Shown here in pieces: positions 4,105-63,616 of a stretch of 64,000 nucleotides of DNA; position 1 is the first letter of the stretch, and every line of letters begins with the position of its first letter. The DNA is from Amyelois transitella (lineage: Eukaryota > Arthropoda > Insecta > Lepidoptera > Pyralidae): assembly GCF_032362555.1 (NCBI RefSeq), contig NC_083516.1, forward strand, positions 149,001 to 213,000, given 5' to 3'. The notes under the pieces were generated by a model. It saw only the letters and a program-made list of their open reading frames with translations. It was not told the DNA's origin and ran no database searches. The translations under genes and the position numbers were made by a program.

Positions 4105-7100
4105 CTAGTAGAGTAACGAGAAAATGCTGTACGTCGACTTTACAATCTGCAACGAAATTAACACAATGTTATACATTTTTATTAACATTTAGCAACAATG
4201 TGGTGTCATAGGTGGTGGTAAATAAAATAGTACTTACCGAAACAAAGGATTCATAAGACATCGGTATTAGACGCAGTGCCCATAAAATTTCAGGTTTCTG
4301 AAATTGAAACCATGTTATTGTTTATTCGCTTTGGAAGCGGAAGTAAATTAAGTCTTTAAACGTCATTATGTGACACACTGTCCTGTATCCTGTTTTGTAT
4401 ACATACATACATATAATCACGTCTATATCCCTTGCGGGGTAGACAGAGCCAACAGTCTTGTATTTGGCTTTCAGATAGAATTGAGATTCAAATAGTGACA
4501 GGTTGCTAGCCCATCGCCTAAAAAAAGAATCCAAAATATGTAAGCCTATCCCTTAGTCGCCTTTTACGACATCCATGGGAAAGAGATGGAGTGGTCTTAT
4601 TCTTTTTTGTATTGGTGCCGGGAACCACACGGCACAGCTCAGTTCCTGTTTTGTAAATAAATCTATTTCTATTAATTGGTAGATACCTGTCCCTTCATCA
4701 TGGCGCAGACCAGCAACTTGCGGACCCTGGGAGAGGAACCGGCGCAGTTCTCCCAGCCGGAGTGGTATATCGCGGTCGAAATCTCTCGAGCCTGGCGATT
4801 GACAAAGGAAAAGGGTGAAAATTACAAAAAATCACATACAACTGACAACGCATAGGCCAAATCGCTTTGTCTTAAGATGTAAAATTTGGTATCCAAAACA
4901 ATACAATACAAATCATCTTTATTGCCCATAAAAAATACATATGTAGTAGAAACGTACATTATGAATATGTTGAGCAAAGGCGAACTTATCGCTAAGCAAT
5001 CTCTTCCAGCCAACCTTTGGGTATATAGGGTGCTTAGGAAGAACTTCCCAAAATTCCCGCAAGATATAAACGGGATTTTTCGCTTTATGCATGTGGAGTC
5101 GCGGGCGCAATTTTTGTAACATATAACTCACTTGGTCAACTGGCGGACATAGTATATGAGCCTGCTCGTAATCATTTTGTTTGTAGAAGTTAATAAACAG
5201 TTATGATTTATACTCGTAACTACAGCAACTTGATCACGGAGTGTATTTTCAAGAGAGATGCAACTTAGCTAGTGAAATTACAAAACTATAGTAATGATTT
5301 TCAGTACCTAACATACTCGCAGACCAGACATATGCAGATCAATTGCATGTTGTACCCGTGGTCTGTCTGTCCACTGATGGTACCACGACTACAGTGTAGT
5401 TTGGTAAATACTGCAGTGTAGTTTGTTCCTCCGTATCTACTACACATGCATTTTGGAAGTGGTAGTAGTTATAATTAGATTTAATTGATGTTATGTCAAT
5501 TAGTGATCCCTTGTATCCGATTTTGAAAACAAATCTTTTCTGTTCTATTCTGTATCTACTCTACTACGGGATATTACCACGTAAAGGCGTATTTTCACTA
5601 CATAGGCTGACCGAGAATTCGCTTGACTTGAGGGCTTCTTGCAAGTATTATCATTGCCATTCAAGGTGGTATAATGCTATAGCCTCGAAGTTTTGTTTGT
5701 GGGAAATTATTCATGCACAATAAATAAATACCTACTGCGTAAATACCAAGATGTTCTACCTCTACAGTGACGTCTCCCGCGTTCAGCATGAGCAGGCCGG
5801 TGCTAGACAGGATCGTGCCAATCGTGAAGAGGCTGGCGATCAGCGACGCCAAAGACCGCTCCTGAAAGATGCATTCACTAAATATAATATTACATACATA
5901 CATACATACATGGTCACGTCTATATACATTGCGTAGACAGAGCCAATAGCCTTGAAAAGACTGAATGACCACGTTCAGCTATTTGGCTTAATGATAGAAT
6001 TGAGATTCAAATAGTGACAGGTTGCTAGCCCATCGCCTAAAGAAGAATCGCCTTAGTCTTAGTCGCCTTTTACTACCTACATCCATGGGAAAGAGATGGA
6101 GTGGTCCAATTCTTTTTTGCATTGGTGCCGGGAACCACACGGCACAATATAATATTACTGGCATTCATTCCAGTTAATTTAAAGACGAGCATTTGCTATC
6201 CGTATTATGGATCATGATCGGTAGTCGTCTCCTTCAGTTAGATCAAAACGAATAAACTAAAGACACGGATCATCATATTGACGGTGTAGCTAAAGCTAGT
6301 TATGGTCCCTCGGATTACAGTCACTTTATATATGATAAACAAAGTCAAAGTCGCTGGAGTGCTTTTAAAAAAGTTCCCAGATCGACGAAATTTTTCACAA
6401 ACACTGAGACGACTGGGTAACAGAGTTAGTCATATTATTACTTTACGTTCTATCATCAAGCTTTTATTACAACTTGGTAATATAACGATCATTGACAGTA
6501 TAACAGGTATTAATGTTATAAAAGATATAAAAGAATCTCTATTTGTTTACCATATTTGATGCCTAAGTGACATACATACAATCATGTCTTTCCCATAACG
6601 GGGTAGACAGAGCCAACAGTCTCGAAAAGGCTACGTTTAGCTGTATGGCATTCAGATTCAAGCAACAACAAGGTTACAGCCCCTCTAACAACATGCCTGA
6701 CCATGCTCTGCCAAGAATACTGTAAAATTATCCCTAAACCTGCACTAGCACCTAGGTCATAACTGAAAATCAGCGTATTGCTCTACAGCAATAAATTCGT
6801 TGAGTTGTGACCTTTTTGTATTGCTGCAACTCACACCCTATTAATTTGTATTCCATATGAAATTGTAAATCGTGTGTAGCAAATCAAATAAATGAATTAT
6901 CTATCTATCTAATGGCCGTGTGGTTCCCGGCACCATTACAAAAGAATAGGACCACTCCATCTCTTTCCCACGGATGTCGTAAGAGCCGACTAAGGGATAG
7001 ACTTGGGATTCCTCTTTAATGTAAATCCCTGCCAATCTAAGGTCTGCCGCGCCGATGGATGCATGGCTAGGGGCGAGCCTAGTCTCGAGCGTGCCACTTC

Positions 7101-10100
7101 CGCCATGGGGTTGGGCGACCCCCAGGTAATGGCTAGCCTTACCCTGGCATGCGGGGCTCTGCTGGGGCGGACAAAATTTTTCCCTAGCGTCTCGTGGGAA
7201 TCGCATTATGAACCTTAAAAAGCATATAAATGGCGGCGATGGTGTCCGCACCCCATCACGTCTCGTTCCCGGCGGGAGCGGTATGCGGTCTGCTGAAAGC
7301 CGCTTTGCGACGATGAATGTAAGAGGAGGAATGAAGGATAAGATTGAGGAAGTATGCCAGATGATGGATGAAAGACGTTTGGATGTGTTGTGCGTGAATG
7401 AAACGAAGCGGAAAGGATGCGACGCGACGCAGCACGGCCCTTACACGGCGTATTGGTCTGGAATATCCAGTACCAGCCGAGGCTGTCAAGGGGTCGGTCT
7501 AATTCTTTCTGCACGAATGGCTGAGTGCGTGAATGAGTATGAGTGTGTCAGCCCTCGTCTTCTATGGATTAGGCTGAAAGTTGGAATCACTCGGATCTTC
7601 GTTCTAGGTGTTTATGCACCTTGGGATGTGGGTTCGAGGGGTACAACATCAGCAAAAAGCGAAAACGAGGAGTTCTGGAATAGTGTAAGAGAAGTATTGA
7701 AAGTTACCAAGCCAAATGAGAAGATTATTATGTTAGGTGATTTTAATGGATGGGTGGGTGTAAAGCGTGATGGATATGAAAAGGTGCTTGGTGCGTTTGG
7801 TGACGAAAAGGTGAATGATAATGGAAGAAGTGTATTAGAAATTTGTCTAGAGTGGGATCTTTTTGTGTCAAACTCAATGTTTCAACATAAAGAGATCCAC
7901 ACCTACACAAGAGTGGAAGGTATTTTAAAAAGTATGATAGACTTTGTGATTGTAGATGAAAGATTGAAGAACAAAGTGCTGGATACCCGTGCATATCGCG
8001 GTGCTGGCATTGACTCGGACCATTTACTGGTGATATCCCGGATAAGGGGTATCTTCAATCGCTGGCGGCACAGGGTAAGGGAGCAAACCAGCGCTTTGGA
8101 AAGAGTAAAAGTGGAAAATTTGCAAGATATGGATGTAGGTAAGAAGTATATTAATAGACTGAAGGATGAATTTGAAGATTTAGATGAAATGAGCGATATT
8201 GAAGATGGATGGAAGGAACTTAAAGAAAGAATTGTGAAAGTAGCTGTTGAAGTGTGTGGTGTAAGTAGAAGAAGGAAAGGAAAAAATCACAAAAATGCGT
8301 GGATGAGTAAAGATGTGCAAGAACTTGTGCGATTAAAGAAGAAAGCATGGCTGGATTTGTTAGCAGCAAAAGCTAACTTAAGAATGCAAGAGGTTATAGA
8401 TGAAGATGTGAATGAAGCACGTAAGGAATATAAGAAAATGAAAGATTTGGTTAAGAAAGCTGTGATTAGAAAGAAAGAAGAGTATAAAGAGGATTTTGAT
8501 AAAAGGCTATCAGAAGACTTTCAGTCAAATCTGAAAGTATTCTGGAAATCCGTAAGGTCAGCCCGAGGAAATACTATAACCAGAGAGCTGACTAGGATCA
8601 GATGCCAGGATGGTAGCGTTGAGAAAGGAGAAGAATGTGTACTAAAGATATGGAAGGACTATTTTGAAAGTTTATGTGAAAAAAAGGAAGGAAATAAGAA
8701 AGATTTCTGCTATAGCGAAGAAAAAGAGAATGAGATGGAAGGCGAAATTGAAATGTTCGAAATTGTGGAAGCACTTAAGAGTATGAAAGCGGGAAAGGCT
8801 GCTGGGTGTGATAGAGTGTCGGTCGAGATGCTTAAAGCAGGAAAAGGCGTAGTAGCTAGTCAGTTGTACTGCCTTTTCAATTTGTGTTGGAGAAGCGGCC
8901 GAGTACCAAAAGATTGGTGTAAGGCTGTTATCGTGCCACTTTACAAAGGAAAAGGGTCACAGCTGGACTGCAAAAATTATCGTGGTATAAGCCTGCTTAG
9001 CGTCGTCGGCAAATTGTATGCTAAGGTATTGATTAATAGAGTCAGGAATGAAACTGATGACAAAATATGGGATGCTCAAGCGGGATTTCGAAAGGGAATG
9101 GGATGTACTGATCAGGTCTTTTCCTTGCGGTGCATAGCCGAAAAGTTTTTGGCCAAGAGTCAAAAAGTCTATTGCACATTCGTAGATCTGGAAAAGGCCT
9201 ATGACAGAGTTGAGAGGAATGAATTGTGGTCAGCACTTTCTATGCATGGGGTGAGCAGTCTCTTAATACGAGCACTGAAATCCTTATATGAGGATTCGAG
9301 TGCTTGTGTCAGGATAAACGGAGCGCACACTGAGTGGTTTAAGATTGAGAAAGGCGTTAGGCAAGGATGTGTTGCGTCACCGTGGCTGTTCAACCTATTT
9401 ATGGATAGCTGTTTGACAGATTTGAAAGAGTCTAAAAGTGGATTAAGGATGAATGAGTTACTCGTCAAATGTCTGCTCTATGCCGACGACCAAGTTATAC
9501 TGGCGTCATCAGCGGAGGAGTTACAGGACATGGTAAACTGTATGCACGAAGCTTTAAAAGAGAAAGGAATGAAAGTGAACGTAAGTAAAACTAAAACACT
9601 GGTTTTTGAAATGGAGAAAGAAATGACAGCATGTAATATTTTGATTGGAGGAGAAAAAGTGGAGCAAGTGAAAGAGTTTGTATATCTAGGATCAAAGTTT
9701 ACATCAGATGGCAAGTATGATAGTGATATTGAAAGGAGAGTGAACGCGGGGAACATGGTGAATGGAGCTTTGCATGCCTTTATGAGCAGTCAGAAACTAT
9801 CCAAAAAGGCTCGACTGGCTGTGCACAGGGGCGTGTTGGTCCCGACATTAATGTATGGGAGTGAAAGTTGGGTATGGCAAAAGAAGCATGAAAGCAGAAT
9901 AAATGCAGTGGAAATGAGAGCGTTAAGGAGTATGATGGGTGTGAAATTGAGTGACAGGATAAGGAACAGCGTGATAAGGGAATGTTGTGATGTGAAAGAA
10001 GATGTAGTTACAGGAATAGAAAAGGGTATGTTAAGATGGTTCGGTCATGTGGAGAGGATGAATGAAAGCAGGTTGACTAAGCAGATATACAAGGAGAGTG

Positions 10101-12101
10101 TGGAGGGAAAGGTCGGAGTGGGAAGACCTAGACGAACGTATCTTGATCAAATTAAGGACGTCCTGGTAAAGGGTCAGGTCAAAAGTACCCGAAACCGCCG
10201 AGCTTGTATGAAGAGAGTTATGAATGTGGACGAAGCGAAAGAAGTATGCAGAGATCGTGGCAAGTGGAAAGAGGTAGTCTCTGCCTACCCCTCCGGGAAA
10301 GAGGCGTGATTTTATGTATGTATGTATGTATCTAATGGAAGGTTGAGCTGAACCACCTCGCTCAGGACGAGCTGCGCCAGCATGAGGATGAGGATGCCGA
10401 TGTTGAGCACGACCTGGAAGCTGAAGATCACGTTGCAGATAGCCTGCCACTCTTGTTTGCACCTGGAGCATTTGTTATACCATATGTAGAAATGGAAAAT
10501 TCATAATTTAGTTAGTTCCTTTTCTTCGAGTTTCTTCAACTCTAATTGATACTTTTTATCAAACTATATAAAGCACTGACTGTTTTATCAACGAACAGCT
10601 GTAAACGCTGGATCGAGAGATTTTAATTTTGGCATGTACGTTATGACCTTTTGGTCTAAGGGAGTCAATAATGGAGATTCTCAGGCGGGCAGTGTGACGT
10701 GCGTACTAACATATTAACGTAAAATAATAAAGGAATAAGATAGTATAAGTAAAAAGAAAGGACGGATAATACATAACTGTAGACATCACTCGAAGAGTAA
10801 CTAGAGCTGGAACATAGAAAATAAAACCACATAACAAAACCAACCATGACGTCTTTGCGTGCAATCTGATACCCAGTTTGAAATTTTCTTCATATTTGCT
10901 TTCTTTCTGCTCCTGAGTCATATTATCCTCTTTAAATAAATCCGCCAACTTGTAGAAGTAACTCTGCAAACATTTGACTTTTTAAGAACTCTAGAATGAT
11001 ATTTGGATATTGGTATATAAAGAAACAAGATATGTGATGCAATTTACGAATATAATATCTCATATCTGGCCCTAATGGCTGCTCTTAATAAATTTTCCTT
11101 CATTTGTATATAGGTATATAAACTTATGGACAATTAAATTTCTAAATTGACGTTATGAATTATATCTTTAACCTGCATGTTTTTAAACTGGCTGCTGAGA
11201 CAGATGGTGATAGAGATGTTGACCATGTAGGTGATGCCCAGGAGAAGCATGAAGTTCAGGAAGATGAGGTAGAAGAAGACGCGGGCGAGGTCGGCGGCGG
11301 GCGACCGGTGGTGCGTCTGCGGCCACGCCAGGATCACTGTGGTGAACGTCGCGCCTTCGGCAAACAAACATATGGAATTCACTTCATGTGGTACAAAGCT
11401 CACCCGTTTTATGATGAGATTTCGTCAAAGTGGACCGTAAACTTTCATTCCTCAATTTTACAGAATAAATCTCCTAACGACAGTTATCAAATTTACTGCT
11501 TATTATTGACAAGACTACACCCAAATTATTCTGCCAGGCTTTTAAGCTCGGATGTTAATTAGCTTAATTGACTTCGGTTATTCTGTATCATAATTTCTAA
11601 ATATATCATCTTCAACCGCTTACCGTACCAAACTACATTCACCAGCGCATCGACTCCATAGAAAAATATAGCGGTCGCGAAAATCCAGACGAACGCCCGT
11701 GACAACACCTTCATCTTCTGCACCGTCACCGCCTCGATATCCTCGTCGTTGTAAACCGATTTCAGCCCCACAGCGAGGTCGTACAACAAGCGTTTGGTTC
11801 TCTTCTCGAAATATAACGAATTCATTATGAAGATTATCACTAAAGGGTGACAGAGCACGAAAAGGACCATGTTCGCGTGCTGGCGATCCGACAACTCCTG
11901 CTCAGTAAATAATGCTCCATATTCGAAGACTACTAGTAATGAAATTAGAATGACACACGTATAGCAATACGCGTCATGTATTCGGACAATTCTCTTTGGT
12001 CTGGCCACTTCTTGTATCCAAATATCAGGCATTCCCAGCCAGTAGGCGAATTGAGCTAGATTGATGAAATACTGCGCTGTTTTGTTCGGGGTGTCCGCCA
12101 T
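4105..12101 (-). CDS. Odorant receptor (7tm_6 family), complete, 8 exons, 406 aa
   Basis: Insect odorant receptors are seven-pass membrane proteins that form ligand-gated cation channels with the co-receptor Orco in antennal neurons. Exons on the minus strand: 12101-11624, 11381-11173, 10963-10845, 10462-10357, 5861-5760, 4791-4687, 4297-4238 and 4146-4105. All junctions are GT-AG with matching phases (1,0,2,0,0,0,0). They sum to 1221 nt, which is 406 codons plus stop and the usual family length. Family hallmarks are several hydrophobic segments in exons 1, 2, 4 and 5, the AIYHSGW segment in exon 6 (the usual Y-x-S-x-W region before TM7), and SYESFVS followed by STYSIFSLLY at the C-terminus, matching the conserved S-Y-S/F end. 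ATG 12101 follows an AT-rich leader. Intron 4 contains a 3.4 kb retrotransposon that leaves all exons intact. The exact receptor subfamily cannot be named. Exon 2's acceptor has a weak pyrimidine tract and was chosen by phase. Confidence 0.9.
4399..4634 (-). repeat. SINE-like repeat, family A copy
   Basis: Read on the minus strand it starts with the family 5' end (CCGTGTGGTTCCCGGCACC) and ends in a short (TATG)n tail. It lies in the odorant receptor intron between exons 6 and 7. It shares both termini with the retrotransposon at 6916-10328. Confidence 0.85.
5385..5500 (+). repeat. Diverged family B repeat fragment
   Basis: Contains the CTGCAGTGTAGTTTGTT and TTTGGAAGTGG blocks of the repeat seen better preserved at 13500-13705 and 56312-56480. 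It lies within odorant receptor intron 5. Diverged and probably truncated. Confidence 0.5.
5891..6143 (-). repeat. SINE-like repeat, family A copy
   Basis: Full-length copy on the minus strand with a (CATA)n run on the plus-strand left side and the GGGAACCACACGG terminus on the right. It lies in odorant receptor intron 4, immediately beside exon 5. Confidence 0.85.
6571..6665 (-). repeat. Family A repeat, 3' fragment
   Basis: The CATACATACA run followed by GGGTAGACAGAGCCAACAGT is the 3' terminal third of the family. The remainder is replaced by unrelated sequence, so it is 5'-truncated or diverged. Confidence 0.6.
6906..6915 (+). repeat. Target-site duplication, left copy
   Basis: TATCTAATGG directly precedes the first base of the retrotransposon and recurs at 10329-10338 directly after its tail. 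The duplication gives exact element borders. Confidence 0.8.
6916..10328 (+). mobile_element. Full-length non-LTR retrotransposon (RTE-like, one ORF)
   Basis: An element of about 3.4 kb starting CCGTGTGGTTCCCGGC and ending in a (TATG)n tail, flanked by a 10-bp target-site duplication. It has about 290 bp of 5' leader, a single large ORF, and almost no 3' UTR beyond the tail. A single endonuclease-reverse transcriptase ORF without a gag ORF and a microsatellite-type tail fit RTE-type elements. The clade call is inference. It sits in intron 4 of the odorant receptor in the opposite orientation, 19 bp past that exon's donor. No frame lesion was seen, so the insertion may be young. Confidence 0.88.
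7208..10309 (+). CDS. Endonuclease-reverse transcriptase of non-LTR retrotransposon, 1033 aa
   Basis: Copies the element by target-primed reverse transcription. The N-terminal third is an APE-type endonuclease: TMNVRGG near residue 36, the NETK glutamate, GDFNGW near residue 176 and the SDH catalytic motif near residue 267. The middle is a basic linker rich in Lys and Glu. The reverse transcriptase follows with KNYRGISLL, QAGFRKGMG, FVDLEKAYDRV, GVRQGC and the catalytic YADD at about residues 758-761. The C-terminus carries the WFGHVERM block common in lepidopteran elements of this kind, with basic GRPRRTY after it. The frame is open from Met 7208 to TGA 10307-10309. An in-frame downstream Met (GSGMRSAE) could also be the start. 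All key catalytic residues appear present. Confidence 0.95.
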   Translation: MNLKKHINGGDGVRTPSRLVPGGSGMRSAESRFATMNVRGGMKDKIEEVCQMMDERRLDVLCVNETKRKGCDATQHGPYTAYWSGISSTSRGCQGVGLILSARMAECVNEYECVSPRLLWIRLKVGITRIFVLGVYAPWDVGSRGTTSAKSENEEFWNSVREVLKVTKPNEKIIMLGDFNGWVGVKRDGYEKVLGAFGDEKVNDNGRSVLEICLEWDLFVSNSMFQHKEIHTYTRVEGILKSMIDFVIVDERLKNKVLDTRAYRGAGIDSDHLLVISRIRGIFNRWRHRVREQTSALERVKVENLQDMDVGKKYINRLKDEFEDLDEMSDIEDGWKELKERIVKVAVEVCGVSRRRKGKNHKNAWMSKDVQELVRLKKKAWLDLLAAKANLRMQEVIDEDVNEARKEYKKMKDLVKKAVIRKKEEYKEDFDKRLSEDFQSNLKVFWKSVRSARGNTITRELTRIRCQDGSVEKGEECVLKIWKDYFESLCEKKEGNKKDFCYSEEKENEMEGEIEMFEIVEALKSMKAGKAAGCDRVSVEMLKAGKGVVASQLYCLFNLCWRSGRVPKDWCKAVIVPLYKGKGSQLDCKNYRGISLLSVVGKLYAKVLINRVRNETDDKIWDAQAGFRKGMGCTDQVFSLRCIAEKFLAKSQKVYCTFVDLEKAYDRVERNELWSALSMHGVSSLLIRALKSLYEDSSACVRINGAHTEWFKIEKGVRQGCVASPWLFNLFMDSCLTDLKESKSGLRMNELLVKCLLYADDQVILASSAEELQDMVNCMHEALKEKGMKVNVSKTKTLVFEMEKEMTACNILIGGEKVEQVKEFVYLGSKFTSDGKYDSDIERRVNAGNMVNGALHAFMSSQKLSKKARLAVHRGVLVPTLMYGSESWVWQKKHESRINAVEMRALRSMMGVKLSDRIRNSVIRECCDVKEDVVTGIEKGMLRWFGHVERMNESRLTKQIYKESVEGKVGVGRPRRTYLDQIKDVLVKGQVKSTRNRRACMKRVMNVDEAKEVCRDRGKWKEVVSAYPSGKEA
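10329..10338 (+). repeat. Target-site duplication, right copy
   Basis: Second copy of TATCTAATGG, matching 6906-6915. It is followed at once by the intron sequence leading to the odorant receptor exon 4 donor. Confidence 0.8.
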
Positions 12102-29151: not shown

Positions 29152-32100
29152 TCACAGCAACACGCACTTGCCTAGTTTGTTGCGGCGGCGTTGCTTGTCC
29201 TCTTGCTGGGGGTGGTTACGGATGATGCGGACCAACTGGAATCCATACAATACAATAAGCTTTATTGCAACAAAATAAATTACAACAAATTCACATCTAC
29301 GTAAAAACATCACAACATAAAGACTGAAGATTAATCCAATACAATAACGAAGTGATAAATGCCACTACAATAATACAGTGGAAGATAAAATATAATTTAT
29401 AAGCAGCAGAGCACTCTATAATCAGGTCAGTGCAGTAGGCTTTCATACTGCGTTGCTTCTAAGCCTTTTTTTGGTGTGCTAACAGGCCTTTGATAAAGCC
29501 TACAAAAGTTTTGATCGACAGCAAAAAGAAGAAGAACCATTTCCCTTTATTTGTTGGATCATGGTTACACATCTAGTTTAATCAGTGTAAGAGCATAGGT
29601 TAGCTATCAAACTAATGTACATTAATTAGAAAGAAGTCATTGATAATTGGTTCATGGGCGCAGTAGCACGTGAATCTATGCACCATGCTTTTTAGTAAGG
29701 AACCTTCACCAATGTGTAAGCCACTTCCACCTCATGTTCAGCGGCGGTCTCGATGTAGGGCGCCCCGAGCTGCAGTATAGTATAGTGTCTCACTCCCGGC
29801 ACCTCACACCTGTGTCGCAGCACCTCGCGCCCACACCAGCCGCTCTCACCTCGTGGAAGGCGGCGTCAATGTTCAGCGGCGGCTCCTTGGCGCTGGTCTC
29901 GATGTAGGGCGCCCCGAGCTGCAGTATAGTATAGTGTCTCACTCCCGGCACCTCACACCTGTGTCGCAGCACCTCGCGCCCACACCAGCCGCTCTCACCT
30001 CGTGGAAGGCGGCGTCAATGTTCAGCGGCGGCTCCTTGGCGCTGGTCTCGATGTAGGGCGCCCCGAGCTGCAGTATAGTATAGTGTCTCACTCCCGGCAC
30101 CTCACACCTGTGTCGCAGCACCTCGCGCCCACACCAGCCGCTCTCACCTCGTGGAAGGCGGCGTCAATGTTCAGCGGCGGCTCCTTGGCGCTGGTCTCGA
30201 TGTAGGGCGCCCCGAGCTGCAGTATAGTATAGTGTCTCACTCCCGGCACCTCACACCTGTGTCGCAGCACCTCGCGCCCACACCAGCCGCTCTCACCTCG
30301 TGGAAGGCGGCGTCAATGTTCAGCGGCGGCTCCTTGGCGCTGGTCTCGATGTAGGGCGCCCCGAGCTGCAGTATAGTATAGTGTCTCACTCCCGGCACCT
30401 CACACCTGTGTCGCAGCACCTCGCGCCCACACCAGCCGCTCTCACCTCGTGGAAGGCGGCGTCAATGTTCAGCGGCGGCTCCTTGGCGCTGGTCTCGATG
30501 TAGGGCGCCCCGAGCTGCAGTATAGTATAGTGTCTCACTCCCGGCACCTCACACCTGTGTCGCAGCACCTCGCGCCCACACCAGCCGCTCTCACCTCGTG
30601 GAAGGCGGCGTCAATGTTCAGCGGCGGCTCCTTGGCGCTGGTCTCGATGTAGGGCGCCCCGAGCTGCAGTATAGTATAGTGTCTCACTCCCGGCACCTCA
30701 CACCTGTGTCGCAGCACCTCGCGCCCACACCAGCCGCTCTCACCTCGTGGAAGGCGGCGTCAATGTTCAGCGGCGGCTCCTTGGCGCTGGTCTCGATGTA
30801 GGGCGCCCCGAGCTGCCGCGCCAGCGCCCGGCCCTCGTCCGCGGAGACCGCGCGCACGTGCACGAGGTCCACCTTGTTGGCCGCCACCAGCATCGGGTAC
30901 GTCTCCCTGAGGATAGTACACTATGTTTCCACTAACCAATTAACCTAAGAGTCAATAAGCATTATTTGAGCCTTAATGTATCAAATAGTGAGGATTTAAA
31001 TCTTATAGAAGACAAGTCATCACCATTTTTCTGGTATTTTATCCCTAATTTTCTTAAAAAAAAACCATAATTCAACCTTCTTTCAAAACTGAAATTTTAC
31101 AGATTATATAAGTATATAATCTGTAAATTTTTGTTTTGAAGAAGGTTGAATTATGAGTTTTTACTTTTTGAATTATGACTCATTACGTCAGTTTTTAACC
31201 GCCTTTAAAAAGGGAGGAGGTTCTCAATTCGCCCATTTTTTCGGACAACACAGTCATCTCACCTATCCTTGACCCTCAAGATCTGCGTGTGGAAATGTCG
31301 AATGTTCTCGAAGCTCTGCTTGTCGGTGACGGAGTACACGAGCAGGAACCCGTCGCCCTTGCGCATGTACTGCTCGCGCATCGCGCTGAACTCCTCCTGC
31401 CCGGCCGTGTCCAGCACTGTAAACAAATAGAGGTCATTGAATTAAATGTTAGTCTCAAGAAATAAAACTACTTACACAAAAAACACTTTATCAGTGGATG
31501 TAAGCTTGCTTGTTACGAGCTAGTTCTTAATCTGACAGATCAATCTATACCGGTAACTCTGCATAAAAAACTCTTCTTTTCTCAAACTTTACGTGATGCC
31601 AGTACTTCATAATGGGTGTGGTCGAAGTTCGTCAAGAACAGATCTACTAGACCTGGATTCAAAGAGAACATTGCCCCTGCTGCAATGAGACAACTATCCA
31701 TGAAATGAAAGTATATGATCACATTACCATCCAAGACACACCATTGTCCGTCCACCGTGCACGAGTCCTCAATGGTGGAGTCGTAGACCTCCATGATCAG
31801 CTACTCGAAGACCTGGATAAATAACCAACGCTGCCCCTGCTGCAAATAAAAAGTCATCTATAAAAGCAACATTACCATCCAAGATGCACCATTGTCCGTC
31901 CACTTCGGTATGCTGTATGTACGAGTCCTCGATGGTAGGGTCGTAGTCCGTCACGAACAATTTCTGGAAGAACTGGATAGTGATGGCGCTTTTGCCGACG
32001 CCGCCATCGCCGACTACCACCAATTTTACCTAGAAAGGGTATAAGCATCTTCACTTATTGCCTTGATCCAATCTAGATTAGATTTTTCTGTTAACAGGGC

Positions 32101-50902: not shown

Positions 50903-53900
50903 ACGACATGTGGAGCTGTGTGGAGAGCGGCGTGGGCAGCGGGCTGGCGCCGTGCGCTAGAGGGAAACACTCTGCCACCTTGCTCGGGGGGTACGTGTAC
51001 GTGCTCGGGGGGAGGGGCGCCGGGGGCTCCGTGCCGCTGCGGGACTTCTGGAGGTACTGTCTTGGTAAGTCTCTTCATATCATTTAATCAACTACAAAAA
51101 AACCAACTTCATTTTTCTCTATCTCAATTTCATCTTTAAGCCATCCAGCTGATGGTAGCTCTTCAGTCTTTTTCAAGCTGTTGGCTCCTTCTACCTCTTT
51201 ATGGATAAAGTCGTGATATATCTTATTTCTAAGCGCAAATCCCAGATACATCCTAACCTCTCTCTGAAGAAGAACCCGGGTGTGTCATTTGACCATGACC
51301 TGGATTGAGTAAGCCTAAATTCTTACACAAAGCGACTTACGTCTTGTGTCTGCAATGATATACTGGATACATACATACATACATATGGTCACGTCTATAT
51401 CCCTTACGGGGTAGACAGAGCCAACAGTCTTGAAAAGACTGAATGGCTATTTGACTTAATAGGCTTAATAGATTCAAATAGTGACAGGTTGCTAGCCCAT
51501 CGCCTAAAAAGGAATCCCAAGTTTGTAAGCCTATACCTTAGTCGCCTTTTACGACATCCATGGAAAAGAGATTGAGCGGTCCTATTCTTTTTTGTATTGG
51601 TGCCGGGAACCACACGGCATATACTGGATCATGGCAAAAAACTTGTAATATTTTCTTTCTCACATATTGCTGTGGTCTCCGCTACTTTGATTTGGATTTT
51701 GAACGTCAGCTAGATCAAGTGATAGGTCCCCGAAGGTATCCTACAAAAATATGCAAAAAATACCACACATTGCTTGTCCTTCAAACATTAAATCTACATC
51801 ATCAATCTTGCGACCATAATTAGTCGACAAACGTGGTAAAATGTCGATCCAAATTGGTCCACTTCTCTCGACCCAATTACCGAATGCAGCGGATTGAAGG
51901 AGCTCTTAAAGAGCGCTGAGTGTGACGGTTCAAGTGGAGGGTGCTTCGGCAGATTTAATGCAAAGTTTGGTGATTGTTACGTAACTCGTTTAAAACTGTC
52001 AAAGCTGGCTATTCTGCTGGCTGGCGGATTCACAAAGCAATGTTGTAACAGCAGTTGTATTTGTACAAATTTGGCAGATCCAAGACTTTCGTATTCCATT
52101 CTAGATAGGTAGGAGTATTATGCTTATATACTACTGAGCTTTACAACGTTCAAATTTTGGCAATGAACCAAAAGTTTGTCTCTGACAATGGCCTCGGGTA
52201 CGTTTAACTCAAGAAAATTAAGATAATTATAATTGATCAAGTTTTAACTCTATTTTCACCGTGGGATGTGATTTCCGAAAATCCGGTAACTACGATGTTG
52301 TAGTTTTTAAAGGCCAAAAGTTTCATTTAAACAGAGATTAAACGGGTGAGATTGCAGTGAGTCAGTTTACCAAAAAAGTCCGTCCTTGGATGTTTTTCTA
52401 GGCGTATTAGATATTTGTCCAAAGTTGACACTCCTGAATCAGTTCGTCCTTAGGGCTGATCACCTCAAAAGTTGAGAAGTCATTAATCCGAAAGCCAACT
52501 CTTTATCCCCAGCGAGTGGGGAGTGGCAGCGGCTGGAGTGCCGTGGCGAGCCACCTCCTGCCCTTCAGGAACACAGCGTGACAGCACACGAGGCGCGTCT
52601 GTATGTCTTCGGGGGGGAAAGCGCGCTCGCCAATGACACGCCGCTCTGGATATATGACACAGAGGTAAGATTTCCCCCTGCCCTGCAGGAACACAATGTG
52701 TCAGCACACAAGTTCAGCTTACAGGGTTTGATTGTCAGATAGAAGGCAAGGTTCTTAGATAGATAGCAAACGTACGTCAAGGGTTGCGTGACTGTTACCA
52801 GTCTTTGGTCATATAAGAAACATGCAACTTAATGCAAAGTGGTAAAAAGTAATGCTTTTTCGATGTTAAACACACGACAACCGTTTCCCAAGAAATAATA
52901 ATGACGTTTAAAATAAGAAGTTTTGTAGATAGTATATAAGAGATAGTATAGTAGAGAGTGGAGTAAACCTACGTATTTTTGGCTGCTCTTCCTAACGTGA
53001 ACGCGTTCGCCTATGTTTGAACATAAACATAGGTAGGTATAGTTCATCAAACTGTTTTTTTTTTCCAGACTCAAATGTGGAGAAAACTTCCTGGTCAAGG
53101 CAGCTTCACAGCGACACTCCGCAGACGAGCACCTCGGGACTCTCGGGGGGTAGGAGCTGGACCTCGCGGGAGGAGGGGACATTCGGCTCATACGCTGAAA
53201 GACTGCCTGCTCATATACGGCGGGTACAAAGATCTGAGAGGCTCTACGAATGAACTATGGGCATTCCACTATGGTAAGTGTCCTTTCTGATAGAATATGA
53301 CATTAGTGGTAATACTTACAGTGGTTCTCAGCTTCGGATATTTGAGAACGGGTGGATCTGCTTTATTTTTTTTGTGTCATTTATAAAGTCCACGGGTTTG
53401 ATCCACCTAGTGTTAGTTTATACTGAAAGTACCCAATACAAGCGCTGGATGCACGCTGTTACATTCGAATCTAGATGGAACAATGGTTCAAGGTTGACTT
53501 CAGATGTTTTTACGATGATGATATTGTGAACAAGTACTTTTAATAATAAACGCGGTGTAACCAACCACCTGCCTGGTTCCAGAATCGGAGAGTTGGCAGC
53601 AAGTGCGCACGGCGGCGGGCCCGGCGCGGCACCGGCACGCGGCCGCGCTGCACGACAACCGCCTGTACGTGCACGGCGGCCAGTGCGACCTGAGGGACTG
53701 CGCCGACCTCTGGCACTACGACACCAGTATGTCACCTCCCTGCTGATTTTCTTAAGACCACACTTTGGGCTACCATCCTTCTCTTCATACTCGTACACAT
53801 ATTTCACTCCATGCTTATGACATTTCGCGCCTCGCCTCATAACATACAACGTATTTCCAATTTCAATATGATGATTTCCTTTTGCCATTACTATAAGGTA

Positions 53901-59064: not shown

Positions 59065-62000
59065 TTACACAGTGTTGGTGTTGGTGTTGGCGGTGTTGGT
59101 GTTGGTGTTGGCGCTGGCGGGCGCGACGGGCGCGTTGGCGGTGCACACGTCGTGGAAGGCGACGCCGAACAGAGCACTGCACGCCGCGCGCGCCGCCGCC
59201 TTGCGCGCCTCCTTCTTGTTCGATGCTACACGACAACATTATTTTTTTTTTATTTATTTATTATTATTATTAATTTTTTTAATTAATTACTTTCAATGCA
59301 TATTATCACGTCTTTACCTCAAGTGGACAGAGCCGTCGGTTTTAAAAATACTGGAAGGCCACGATCAGCTATATGGATTAAAGATGGAATTGAGATTGAA
59401 ATAGTGCCAGGTTACTAGCCCATCGTATAAATGAATAATGCCAAGTTTATAAGCCTATCCCTTACCCGCATTTTATTATTTATTTATACATTTATCAAAG
59501 AAAATAAGAATAAAACTTTAAATAAAGATAAATTCAGTACAAGGACACGTGTAAGCACGAAAGTGCAAAGAGAGGCATTGGGGTTGTGTACATAATTATT
59601 AAGATATAAACTTACATAAACTTACTGATTACTATACTAAAACATACTATAATAAAAAACAAATATCAAATAAATAAACATACATGAATATAATAAAATA
59701 CAATATAAATGAATAGTGGATGCGTCACGACAAGAAAGACATGTAGTGTTATCTCACAAGTTATTTCAAGATTTTATAGTATTTTTTTAAGTTATTAGCA
59801 GAGATCGGAATAGGTAGATTGAATTGGGGTCAATGAACTGAAACGTATATATTAATATGGACATGCCTCCGTTCGGGATTGCGAGATTTGTAAATAATTA
59901 AGATTTTTTTCCGGAATTTATACAAGTGGGATGAAGAATATATTAGTGGTAGCTGTTTTCCCCCGACTTCGTTCACGTAAATTGTAGTCCTATGTTACCC
60001 GCGGACAATGTAGTTTACTGTAAGTGTAAGTACTGAAATGGAATCCCGGAAAAGAGGCTTCTCCATGTTATGCTTTCTATGGTAATTCATGATGCAAGTA
60101 CATAAAATCAATCTACCTATTCCGATCTCTAGTTATTAGTTACATTATATAGTTGTTATTTCTCAAGGGCACACCGATCTGCTGCCGTTTGTGCAGCAAA
60201 CACTGCACATTCTGTACCAAATAAATTAAATTTATTTTAAGATTTTAAATCTAATTAAGACGACACTCACCCTTGCCAACAAAAGTGGACCCTTCGACCT
60301 CCACTCCAACAGTGAACACCATGTTCTGAGGCCGGTCACCCTCCACCTGATACACAAGTATTTATATCGTTAATATTTGAAAAATGATTAAAGCCGTATG
60401 GTGCACTTAAGCATCGGAACACTCTTATATCTTTTCCATGGATATCGTAAAAGCGACTTAAGGAAAAGCAAATAAAAGGTCGAATCCCACTTCGGGTATG
60501 TGCAAATGACACAGTTATATACATTAGTTTCTAAACTGACGCTTCTACGGTGAGGAAAAACGTCGCGAGGAAACTTGCACATCCAGACAACTGAATGTGT
60601 CACCATGATCGATCAAATACCCGCAAAGATTGCAGACATCAGAAACCTGGCTCACCCAATCCAGGCATATGCCTGGACGCATGTAGCCAGCAGCAGGCTG
60701 TGGCAGGAGAGACACCCACCTGCAGCTCCCTGTACTCCACGCTGGGCCGCATGTAGCCAGCAGCAGGCTGTGGCAGGAGACACCCACCTGCAGCTCCCTG
60801 TACTCCACGCTGGGCCGCATGTAGCCAGCAGCAGGCTGTGGCAGGAGACACCCACCTGCAGCTCCCTGTACTCCACGCTGGGCCGCATGTAGCCAGCAGC
60901 AGGCTGTGGCAGGAGACACCCACCTGCAGCTCCCTGTACTCCACGTTGGGCCGCATGTAGCCAGCAGCAGGCTGTGGCAGGAGACACCCACCTGCAGCTC
61001 CCTGTACTCCACGCTGGGCCGCATGTAGCCAGCAGCAGGCTGTGGCAGGAGACACCCACCTGCAGCTCCCTGTACTCCACGCTGGGCCGCATGTAGCCAG
61101 CAGCAGGCTGTGGCAGGAGACACCCACCTGCAGCTCCCTGTACTCCACGCTGGGCCGCATGTAGCCAGCAGCAGGCTGTGGCAGGAGACACCCACCTGCA
61201 GCTCCCTGTACTCCACGCTGGGCCGCATGTAGCCAGCAGCAGGCTGTGGCAGGAGACACCCACCTGCAGCTCCCTGTACTCCACGCTGGGCCGCATGTAG
61301 CCAGCAGCAGGCTGTGGCAGGAGACACCCACCTGCAGCTCCCTGTACTCCACGCTGGGCCGCATGTAGCCAGCAGCAGGCTGTGGCAGGAGACACCCACC
61401 TGCAGCTCCCTGTACTCCACGCTGGGCCGCATGTAGCCAGCAGCAGGCTGTGGCAGGAGACACCCACCTGCAGCTCCCTGTACTCCACGCTGGGCCGCAT
61501 GTAGCCCAGCAGCAGGCTGTGGCAGCAGAGACACCCACCTGCAGCTCCCTGTACTCCACGCTGGGCCGCATGTAGCCAGCAGCAGGCTGTGGCAGCAGAG
61601 ACACCCACCTGCAGCTCCCTGTACTCCACGCTGGGCCGCATGTAGCCCAGCAGCAGGCTGTGGCAGGAGACACCCACCTGCAGCTCCCTGTACTCCACGT
61701 TGGGCCGCATGTAGCCAGCAGCAGGCTGTGGCAGCAGAGACACCCACCTGCAGCTCCCTGTACTCCACGCTGGGCCGCATGTAGCCAGCAGCAGGCTGTG
61801 GCAGCAGAGACACCCACCTGCAGCTCCCTGTACTCCACGCTGGGCCGCATGTAGCCAGCAGCAGGCTGTGGCAGCAGAGACACCCACCTGCAGCTCCCTG
61901 TACTCCACGCTGGGCCGCATGTAGCCCAGCAGCAGGCTGTGGCAGCAGAGACACCCACCTGCAGCTCCCTGTACTCCACGCTGGGCCGCATGTAGCCAGC

Positions 62001-62269
62001 AGCAGGCTGTGGCAGCAGAGACACCCACCTGCAGCTCCCTGTACTCCACGCTGGGCCGCATGTAGCCAGCAGCAGGCTGTGGCAGCAGAGACACCCACCT
62101 GCAGCTCCCTGTACTCCACGTTGGGCCGCATGTAGCCCAGCAGCATGGCGGGGTGCATGGCGGGCGCGTTGAGCGGCAGCTCCTTGGGCTCCTTCGGCTT
62201 CTTGGCGGGCGGCGGGCGCGGCGCGGCGCTGCTCGGGGCCGGGGCTTCCGTCTCCGCGTCCGACGATTG
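59065..62269 (-). CDS. dsRNA-binding-domain protein, C-terminal part (three exons found)
   Basis: Exons on the minus strand: 62269-62099, 60346-60271 and 59225-59065. Phases (0,1) match and the frame ends at TAA 59067-59065. Upstream exons lie beyond the window or were not recognised. The first exon is Ala/Pro/Lys-rich, then HPAMLLGYMRPNVEYRELQ opens a dsRBD. The second gives VFTVGVEVEGSTFVGK, the central beta sheet. The third gives NKKEARKAAARAACSALF, the basic helix that contacts dsRNA. This matches the pattern of dsRBDs in ADAR, ILF3 and Staufen families. The tail is an Asn-Thr repeat (NTNTNT) before the stop. No deaminase domain was seen downstream, so an ADAR assignment is not supported here. 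Exon 1's 3' end is followed by a 20-unit tandem array, and the upstream intron holds a mariner. The acceptor of the last exon lacks a clear pyrimidine tract. Confidence 0.82.
59301..59465 (-). repeat. Family A repeat, 5'-truncated diverged copy
   Basis: ATCACGTCTTTACCTCAAGT, GGACAGAGCC, GAATTGAGATTGAAATAGTG and TAAGCCTATCCCTTA follow the family order on the minus strand, without the 5' terminus. It lies in the last intron of the dsRNA-binding gene. Confidence 0.7.
60391..60470 (+). repeat. Family A-like 5' fragment
   Basis: GCCGTATGGTGCACTTAAGC, then ACACTCTTATATCTTTTCCA and TGGATATCGTAAAAGCGACT, match the first ~80 bp of family A with many changes. It lies in the intron just before the tandem array. 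Confidence 0.5.
60672..62143 (-). repeat. Tandem array of 68-71-bp units spanning a dsRBD exon-intron junction
   Basis: Downstream of the exon ending at 62099, about 20 extra units repeat the last ~45 exonic bases, the donor (GAGCTGCAG then GTGGGTG) and ~20 intronic bases. Donor-equivalent positions: 62029, 61959, 61888, 61818, 61748, 61678, 61609 and 61539 (spacing 69-71), then 61468 to 60720 in twelve steps of 68. Each unit has TGCCACAG just before CCTGCTGCTGG, so it reads as acceptor, 48-nt exon in phase 0 (PAAGYMRP..YRELQ) and donor. The spacer of only ~20 nt is too short to splice between neighbours, but any unit could pair with distant sites. All three minus-strand frames are open for over 500 codons, because unit length is not a multiple of three and no unit carries a stop. 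Those frames are not real genes. Confidence 0.95.
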
Positions 62270-62294: not shown

Positions 62295-63616
62295 TACTCT
62301 GTCAAGTAAGTAGCAGGAAAAGATCAATAATACACAAACTGTTTGTTATTCATCAAAATTTATTTTATCACCTTCAAAATATGCTCCTTTAGAAACGATA
62401 CACTTACGCCAACGAATAATCCAATCATCAAAACATTTTTTAAACGCTGTTTCCGGAATTGAGGTCAGTTCTCGCCGCGAATTCTCTTTTATGTCTTCTA
62501 CTGATTGAAAACGGGTGCCACGAAGTGGTAATTTGAGTTTAGGAAAAAGAAAAAAGTCGGCTGGAGCCATATCTAGTGAATATGGTGGTTGCTCGATGGT
62601 ATTTGTTGAGTGTTTGGTTAAAAATTCGTTCACAATGATGGCCTTGTGCGAAGGTGCATTATCATGGTGCAAAATCCAAGAATTTTCTTTCCACAAATCT
62701 GGCCTTTTTCGTCGGATTTGCTCTCTTAAACGCCGCATAACACTCAAATAATATTCCTTATTTACCGTTTGACCTTCCGGCAAGAATTCCGAGTGCACAA
62801 CACCGCGATAGTCAAAGAAAACAGTCAACATGACTTTGACTTTTGAACGACTTTGGCGTGGTGTTTTCGGTTTCGGTTCAGTTGGAAGGCGCCACTCCGA
62901 AGCTTGTTGACTAGTTTGCATGTCAAACTCGTAAACCCACGTCTCGTCACCAGTAACAATGCGTTTCATGAATGTTGGGTCGGAATTGACTCGTTCTAGC
63001 ATGTCCTCAGCGACTCTCATGCGATTGAGTTTTTGAAAAAAATTCAGGTCTTTTGGGACTAGCCGAGCGGCAACATGTTTCATACCCAAATTTTTAGTTA
63101 AAATGGTACGGATCGACTCGTGAGATACAGAAAGTTCGGTGGCTATCTCTCTCAAAGTTGAATGAGGATTTTCAGTCACTATTTCCTTCACTTTTGCGAT
63201 GTTAACTTCAGTTGCAGACGTTGATGGCCTACCAGAGCGAGGCAAATCTTCCATCACATCTCGACCGCTTTTGAACGCTTTGTACCACTCATAAGCACGA
63301 GTTTTTGATAAAGTCGATTCACCGTAAGCCTTCTGTAACATTTTCAGTGACTCCGAACACGATATTCCATTGGCAATGCAAAATTTAAGACAAACTCTTT
63401 GTTCGATGTTTTTATCCATTATGAAATTAGCAATACACACTAGATATGATATAACTAAAAATAGCTCTGTATTTAATGTAAACAACAGATGCAACTCAAA
63501 CTCCGCGCCAAAATGGAAAACAGTTGTGCCAATCTAACAACAACAAAAAAAAAACAAAAATTTGAATTTGGAACCATAAATAAATAATCCATTCCCGATA
63601 CTTTTCTGACTGAATG
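62295..63616 (-). mobile_element. mariner transposon, apparently full length
   Basis: A 1.3-kb element in an intron of the dsRNA-binding gene. The inner parts of the ends match as inverted repeats: GTCAAGTAAGTAGCAGGAA at the left and, read from the other strand, GTCAGAAAAGTATCGGGAA at the right. TA dinucleotides lie beside both edges, as expected for mariner. The outermost bases match poorly, so exact borders are uncertain by a few bases. Confidence 0.85.
62346..63419 (-). CDS. mariner transposase, intact frame, 357 aa
   Basis: Cut-and-paste transposase. The preferred start is the Met of MDKNIEQRVCLKF at 63419. An in-frame extension to 63494 is hydrophobic and not conserved, so it is likely 5' UTR. 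The N-terminal half has two helix-turn-helix regions, with the linker LPRSGRPS between them. The catalytic domain shows GDETW, HHDNAPSH and APADFF, and the last two aspartates are separated by 34 residues (D34D), diagnostic of mariner rather than Tc1. WVYEFD and FLFPKLK blocks are present. No internal stop or frameshift was seen. It is close in length to known mariner transposases (about 345-355 aa). Confidence 0.95.
   Translation of the reverse strand: MDKNIEQRVCLKFCIANGISCSESLKMLQKAYGESTLSKTRAYEWYKAFKSGRDVMEDLPRSGRPSTSATEVNIAKVKEIVTENPHSTLREIATELSVSHESIRTILTKNLGMKHVAARLVPKDLNFFQKLNRMRVAEDMLERVNSDPTFMKRIVTGDETWVYEFDMQTSQQASEWRLPTEPKPKTPRQSRSKVKVMLTVFFDYRGVVHSEFLPEGQTVNKEYYLSVMRRLREQIRRKRPDLWKENSWILHHDNAPSHKAIIVNEFLTKHSTNTIEQPPYSLDMAPADFFLFPKLKLPLRGTRFQSVEDIKENSRRELTSIPETAFKKCFDDWIIRWRKCIVSKGAYFEGDKINFDE

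Follow-up and report, generated by a model that had tools for sequence, protein, structure and literature searches.

Tandem copies of exon tails that include the 5′ splice site recur in the Amyelois transitella genome, with an expanded array behind exon 4 of M-Ras

At several loci in the genome of Amyelois transitella a short tandem duplication takes in a 5′ splice site, and in the cases found the complete exon always lies upstream of its copies. One such array stands behind exon 4 of an M-Ras gene, where seven identical 149-bp units are followed by a decayed eighth, and six of the units could serve, on paper, as additional in-frame exons. We consider it reasonably probable that a recurrent process duplicates exon tails across the donor, that the copies are tolerated as the upstream exon is complete, and that M-Ras is an expanded case in which splicing proceeds mainly as normal.

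Results

The array lies on the minus strand of a 64,000-nucleotide stretch at C12:149001-213000, the whole of which is referred to here as the window; features of the locus and of comparable loci are collected in Table 1. Among solved structures the product of exon 4 matched M-Ras best (E 1e-17, vs 1.5e-10 for R-Ras2), and the product of exon 5 ends in KCVLL, giving a CaaX-like CVLL at the C-terminus. The Ras domain, the best match and the C-terminal CaaX together indicate that the gene is M-Ras, a Ras-family GTPase, in agreement with the call made in the initial annotation. A search for one motif through the 20 kb upstream gave nothing convincing for exon 1, and the exon numbers are therefore provisional.

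Table 1. Exons, repeat units and exon-tail copies in the window and in survey stretches (L numbers); positions without an L number are those of the window.
Feature	Position	Strand	Details
M-Ras exon 2, ends QWCILD, donor GATG/GTAATG	31876..32029	-	154 nt; Pfam Ras 5.5e-13
M-Ras exon 3, ends RVKD	31263..31416	-	154 nt; Pfam Ras 5e-19
M-Ras exon 4, ends IDAAFHE, donor GAG/GTGAGAG, complete	30744..30906	-	163 nt; M-Ras match
M-Ras exon 5, coding part to stop, acceptor GGATTCCAG	29152..29235	-	
Complete M-Ras array, 7 perfect units of 149 bp plus decayed eighth	29731..30812	-	TRF; perfect units one distinct sequence
First 80-nt spacer, GTGAGAG...CTATACTATACTGCAG	30664..30743	-	
Candidate mini-exon, copy 2	30595..30663	-	69 nt, 23 codons
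Candidate mini-exon, copy 3	30446..30514	-	
Candidate mini-exon, copy 4	30297..30365	-	
Candidate mini-exon, copy 5	30148..30216	-	
Candidate mini-exon, copy 6	29999..30067	-	
Candidate mini-exon, copy 7	29850..29918	-	
Decayed eighth copy, donor GTGGAA	29731..29769	-	39 nt
Decayed donor-crossing copy in intron 2, from the 3′ half of M-Ras exon 2	31721..31819	-	offset 148, ~75% identity
62-kb array, 68-bp consensus x 21.3	60678..62145	-	TRF; behind open exon-like stretch 62269-62099
Kelch-repeat exon, 39-bp piece recurring just behind donor GAG/GTAAGA	52554-52592, 52674-52712	+	
PI4K-beta array, exon ...VLNSKDK/GTGAGATG	L009		171 bp x 6, 98%; host exon E 7.2e-14
Rab5 exon copies	L027		host exon E 3e-36
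Ral exon, at least 2 partial decayed copies downstream	L043 1910-2301	-	Ral-A E 1.9e-26
MTA1-like gene, two exons, each with decayed copy in next intron	L018 668-934, 2849-3153		E 1.1e-30, 3.8e-19
Ankyrin exon	L011		Pfam match
Unnamed exon	L012		open frame ending at donor

Tandem Repeats Finder (TRF) reported the M-Ras array at 29746-30816, with a period of 149, 7.2 copies, 100% matches and 0 indels. Each unit consists of 69 nt of coding sequence (23 codons) and 80 nt that start GTGAGAG and end TACTGCAG; on the minus strand the units begin at 30812, within exon 4, and then in 149-bp steps at 30663, 30514, 30365, 30216, 30067, 29918 and 29769. The first seven units are a single distinct sequence. 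Since copy 1 is formed by the final 69 nt of exon 4 (30812-30744), the perfect extra copies number six, and the first spacer is followed by six identical spacers in the same 149-bp steps, the last at 29849-29770. The perfectly repeated unit of 69 nt of exon and 80 nt of intron, and the count of six extra copies, had both been proposed from a first inspection of the DNA and both stand. The distal, eighth copy, absent from that first description, has lost 30 nt through two deletions, keeping the frame, and its donor is poorer. At the junction GCAG is shared, the exon ahead of the unit reading GCGCGGCAG and the end of the spacer ATACTGCAG.

Within the 327-Mb genome the 1,075-bp array sequence was reported at a single place, and self-BLAST over 355,100 bases gave 0 other loci; hence the array is not a product of chance, and on the same observation a transposon-borne repeat was rejected as its source. 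Head-to-tail, near-identical units (149 bp, 7.2 copies, 100%) give it the form of a minisatellite, or VNTR. At an insect mutation rate of 2.9e-9 per site per generation, the lack of any difference across 7 x 149 sites would date the most recent homogenisation to no more than about one million generations ago.

The array had been treated as a matter of one gene, yet copies of the same kind recur in the genome, a second array and a decayed copy of M-Ras exon 2 being found within the window itself. In the second array, at 62 kb, the unit comprises an exon tail (GYMRPSVEYRELQ), the donor CAG/GTGGGT and a short piece of intron; 21 donors follow one another in 68-71-bp steps, and the open stretch ahead of them ends PAMLLGYMRPNVEYRELQ/GTGGGT. 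About 22 nt separate a donor from the next CACAG, too short for splicing by itself. The open stretch (57 codons) had no match in Pfam, nor any among solved structures at E up to 1, so that the gene is left unnamed and its exon is a putative one. Adjoining this exon is a 395-aa open frame (62346-63533, minus strand), which we take to resemble a mariner-type transposase. Elsewhere in the window, a 1059-aa open frame (7130-10309, plus strand) contains endonuclease- and reverse-transcriptase-like sequence and is presumably a non-LTR retrotransposon.

The wider survey covered one assembly, with exons recognised via homology or via an open frame that runs up to a donor. Arbitrary samples were taken as twenty 10-kb stretches at 3.0 Mb of C1-C20 and five at 6.0 Mb of C1-C5. 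TRF arrays of at least 3 copies, with a minimum period of 50 and a GC fraction over 0.5, numbered three in the twenty 3.0-Mb stretches and the window (two in the window, one in PI4K-beta); the five 6.0-Mb stretches held no such arrays. Self-BLAST over 355,100 bases, with L001 omitted as part of the window, an offset of 30-1000 and a length of at least 35, yielded 49 clusters of local direct repeats, 24 locus-unique and 25 matching other loci. The non-unique clusters have 1 to 30 other loci each (15 or more for 24/25), and mostly look like dispersed SINE-like copies, open reading frames having been viewed for 11 clusters.

Among the 24 locus-unique clusters, 11 have a GC content above 0.5, and these belong to M-Ras exons 4 and 2, the 62-kb array, the kelch gene, PI4K-beta, the ankyrin exon, the L012 exon, two MTA1-like exons, Rab5 and Ral. 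The 13 others are nine AT-rich clusters, three that lie within a larger array in L014, and one at 4479 in L019. In L014 repeats ~3.8 kb apart, with smaller internal repeats, extend over the whole 10 kb as a larger tandem array. The L019 cluster is a 42-bp repeat (4479-4520 and 5110-5151) at a possible exon end (...RPLHN, with GTATGT nearby), and is perhaps another exon-tail copy.

Within the GC-rich set, the PI4K-beta junction shares GGGCGG by eye, and in one Ral copy the donor GT reads AT. The L012 exon has no Pfam match; placement of its copy and of that in the kelch gene rests on BLAST. Further downstream of the copy of M-Ras exon 2, a fainter second copy is visible by eye at ~31600-31700 (minus strand). 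Identity between copies is graded, from 100% in M-Ras exon 4 through 98-99% in PI4K-beta, Rab5 and the 62-kb array to about 75-90% in the MTA1-like gene, Ral, ankyrin and M-Ras exon 2, a gradation that we read as one of age. The copy furthest from the exon is decayed in M-Ras, PI4K-beta and Rab5, and the inner copies are near the exon sequence, the match being exact only in M-Ras; such an arrangement would be expected if the arrays had been re-expanded from the exon side.

Two further samples bear on how frequent such copies are. Ras-family stretches picked by coordinates, blind to repeats, contained them in 1/20 (Ral). Protein-family searches, in which periodic rows were sought by eye, were positive for one of five families (Rab5); they returned 120, 145, 21, 51 and 31 matches, with 150/161, 130/534, 19/116, 48/111 and 37/37 candidates scored. 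A kinase pair with overlapping ranges (L028) held no repeat. Exon 4 of M-Ras appeared as a single row, with no rows for its extra copies, and the method therefore misses short copies. Multi-copy expansion may be rare, though copies as short as those of M-Ras went unreported by the row method.

In 11/11 locus-unique GC-rich local duplications from the 355,100 bases, the intact exon has its extra copies on the 3′ side. The donor is crossed in nine, if loosely by the copies of the ankyrin exon and of the second MTA1-like exon; the L012 and kelch copies end before the donor, and acceptor-crossing copies were found in 0/11. These 11 events fall in 9 genes, with M-Ras exon 4 given at the outset and Rab5 chosen for its periodic rows. 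With Rab5 excluded, 8/8 genes are 3′-sided (one-sided sign test, 0.004), and the value is 0.016 if only the 6 genes with donor-reaching copies are counted. Exon-derived clusters made up 5/13 of the locus-unique clusters in the 25 arbitrary stretches (L014 set aside); without L019, 5/12 compares with a near-exon share of 10-15% at P 0.004-0.024, this share being an assumption and detection being favoured by the fact that exons stay recognisable longer than introns. The one-sidedness is not affected by this bias.

The capacity of the M-Ras units for splicing was scored with donor and acceptor matrices built from 23 introns, 31 exon pairs having been tried in 20 Ras-family stretches of this genome. 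These matrices are small; 8/31 pairs had no consistent junction, and 2/23 acceptors below -8 and one donor below 0 may be wrong. On this scale the cassette has a donor of 10.0 (rank 14 of 23) and an acceptor of 6.2 (rank 7 of 23), the latter above the acceptors of M-Ras exon 3 (4.4), exon 4 (5.7) and exon 5 (4.65). Each of the six extra copies is open over 23 codons and in phase 0/0. With such phase, frame and site scores the cassettes are splice-competent on paper and their inclusion is possible. The phase 0/0 with a donor and acceptor for every unit, as claimed in the initial annotation, was thus recovered, and its ‘six ready-made mini-exons’ are anatomically right, their use in splicing being putative and the suggested roles, a splicing decoy array or a source of length variants, hypothetical. 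As with introns that derive from tandem arrays, the direct repeats enclose potential introns whose boundaries match.

Acceptors as good as that of the cassette occur in the window at 1.53 per kb per strand, so an 80-nt spacer would have one by chance in ~12% of cases and, with a one-in-three phase, a duplication would yield a ready-made cassette in ~4%. Given about ten duplications examined and the best one picked, such a cassette is not remarkable. No unit of the other three arrays scored has a comparable usable acceptor: the best in the 62-kb array is -0.7 or -0.3 (5 of 20 intervals scored), that in PI4K-beta is 1.0 at an impossible 26-nt intron, and Rab5 offers one acceptor of 4.0 at a distance of 24 nt and another of 3.5 at 121 nt, the latter out of frame. 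Hence the ready-made exon is not a general property of the class; of the four arrays scored, only in M-Ras does a good acceptor coincide with an intron of 80 nt and an exon in frame. Because the other three lack an acceptor as good, the property in M-Ras would most simply be a by-product, one that may nevertheless be used.

Discussion

In our reading, M-Ras is a young and expanded case of a duplication process, and its junction supplied the acceptor. A segment that starts within exon 4 and extends over the 5′ splice site into intron 4 would have been duplicated in tandem at the GCAG junction, and then expanded and homogenised to the seven identical 149-bp units. As a recurring process, an exon tail, its donor and the start of the intron would be copied head to tail into the adjoining downstream intron. 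Donor-crossing duplications would persist because the upstream-most copy stays a complete exon with its donor and normal splicing is possible; with the first donor still joining the next exon, the copies may be nearly neutral. Acceptor-crossing duplications, which would place a partial exon ahead of the true exon, and duplications within an exon would be removed by selection. At M-Ras the junction would have set an intronic AG against the exon copy, creating splice-competent, in-phase cassettes of 69 nt. The expected transcripts would be mostly normal exon 4-exon 5 products, some carrying stochastic cassettes with 23 additional residues each. That tolerance is the cause of the one-sidedness we infer, as we do the splicing outcome.

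Against an inert array stands the cassette acceptor, which outscores those of M-Ras exons 3, 4 and 5 and lies only 80 nt from the donor. Against one-sidedness as a general rule stands an acceptor-side duplication published for potato (PMC4974935), which shows that such events do survive in other genomes. It is tempting to speculate that a one-sided process is ongoing and affects perhaps a few per cent of all exons (a guess drawn from this sample), with copies that decay and sometimes expand, and with AG-bearing junctions that produce a cassette ladder and M-Ras isoforms in 23-residue steps. We put forward this wider claim tentatively, as a possibility rather than an expectation.

A somewhat unlikely alternative, to be taken seriously all the same, is that the six cassettes are regularly spliced, singly or chained, giving an M-Ras lengthened by n x 23 residues that are tolerated or even useful. 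The inserted residues would sit between the guanine-specificity loop and helix and the C-terminal tail. All six cassettes are open and in phase 0/0, the scores of their sites are within the range of real ones, the other three scored arrays lack their combination of features, and even the decayed eighth copy retained its frame. Yet the insert would probably repeat one strand of the G domain together with the beginning of its last helix, and the chance rate of qualifying acceptors in 80-nt spacers lessens the weight of the acceptor.

One-sided duplication without any selection by splicing is, in our estimation, unlikely. On this account the ends of exons, through a drop in GC content, transcription or RNA-templated repair, would make duplications start at donors, and 11/11 copies do run from the GC-rich exon toward the downstream intron. 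The GCAG junction of M-Ras and the GGGCGG junction of PI4K-beta, as judged by eye, resemble ordinary short-homology joins instead, and at this sample size such a bias is not distinguishable from selection.

Two other accounts we hold to be very improbable. A splicing brake or decoy would use the many donors and acceptors to engage the spliceosome, so that a stop in the spacer lowers M-Ras output, possibly in a regulated manner; spacer read-through does meet a stop 19 codons past exon 4, and seven strong, identical donors stand in a row, but the comparable duplications found elsewhere in the genome resemble by-products. Similarly, there is little reason to think that the true locus has one, a few or another number of units: identical copies are a typical point of assembler failure, but the contigs are large (33 for 327 Mb), and neither the decayed distal copy nor the decayed single duplications elsewhere look like assembly error.

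Mutually exclusive exons were rejected, as copy 1 is fused to exon 4, where its internal CAG scores -8.3 as an acceptor and so does not delimit a separate exon, and no docking-selector complementarity was seen: in a simple exact-match test the longest complement in each of three M-Ras intron stretches was 7 nt, equalled in 91-123 of 200 shuffles. Dual-specific sites of the UBC type were likewise rejected, the acceptor TGCAG/CTC and the donor GAG/GTGAG being separate and 69 nt apart.

The preferred reading, that of recurrent and tolerated exon-tail duplication, has consequences beyond a single gene. The debate on the origin of new introns and exons has had few recent cases to draw on. Should one genome hold many donor-crossing copies of graded age, decay, expansion and cassette use would become directly traceable along a series that would run from a perfect array through arrays of 98-99% identity to single copies of roughly 75-90%. 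The one-sidedness provides a clean and testable prediction on which duplications splicing tolerates. What looks like a recurring copying accident can leave ready-made extra exons and, if this is true of M-Ras, exon and intron birth would be caught there in the act.

The array joins a known class, that of introns and exons from tandem arrays. Recurrent one-sided donor-crossing duplication of exon tails within one genome was not found among the open-licence literature matches listed. Tandem arrays reportedly make introns in human genes, where Zhuo, in PNAS in 2007, is said to have described intron-breeding repeats. Those arrays and that of M-Ras would be alike in being recent and in having tandem direct repeats that give matching intron boundaries; in M-Ras, by contrast, the seed is an existing exon tail with its own donor, and the copies lie behind an intact exon.

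Three published systems come close in other respects. In potato RdRp an intron was gained by tandem duplication across the intron 1-exon 2 boundary (PMC4974935). There, as in M-Ras, the duplicated segment spans an exon/intron boundary and inherits its splice signals, but the potato case concerns the acceptor side, one duplication and a reported new intron, whereas M-Ras concerns the donor side, seven copies and potential introns. Novel introns have also arisen through tandem duplication in Drosophila (PMC2891723), likewise in insect genes and beside a splice signal; the Drosophila duplications involve coding sequence with a proto-splice site, and that of M-Ras an existing donor with its intron. 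In polyubiquitin UBC, dual-specific splice sites accompany tandem repeats that, as in M-Ras, can be removed or included in frame by splicing, and the authors suggest that splice-competent expansions are less harmful; AGGT serves there as both donor and acceptor, whereas in M-Ras the sites are separate and the potential intron takes up 80 nt of the 149-bp unit (PMC10809524).

Finally, mutually exclusive exons of the Dscam type (PMC6071210) share with M-Ras the tandem copying of exons together with adjacent intron sequence. From a Dscam cluster one whole exon is chosen, whereas in M-Ras copy 1 is fused to exon 4 and the copies are identical.
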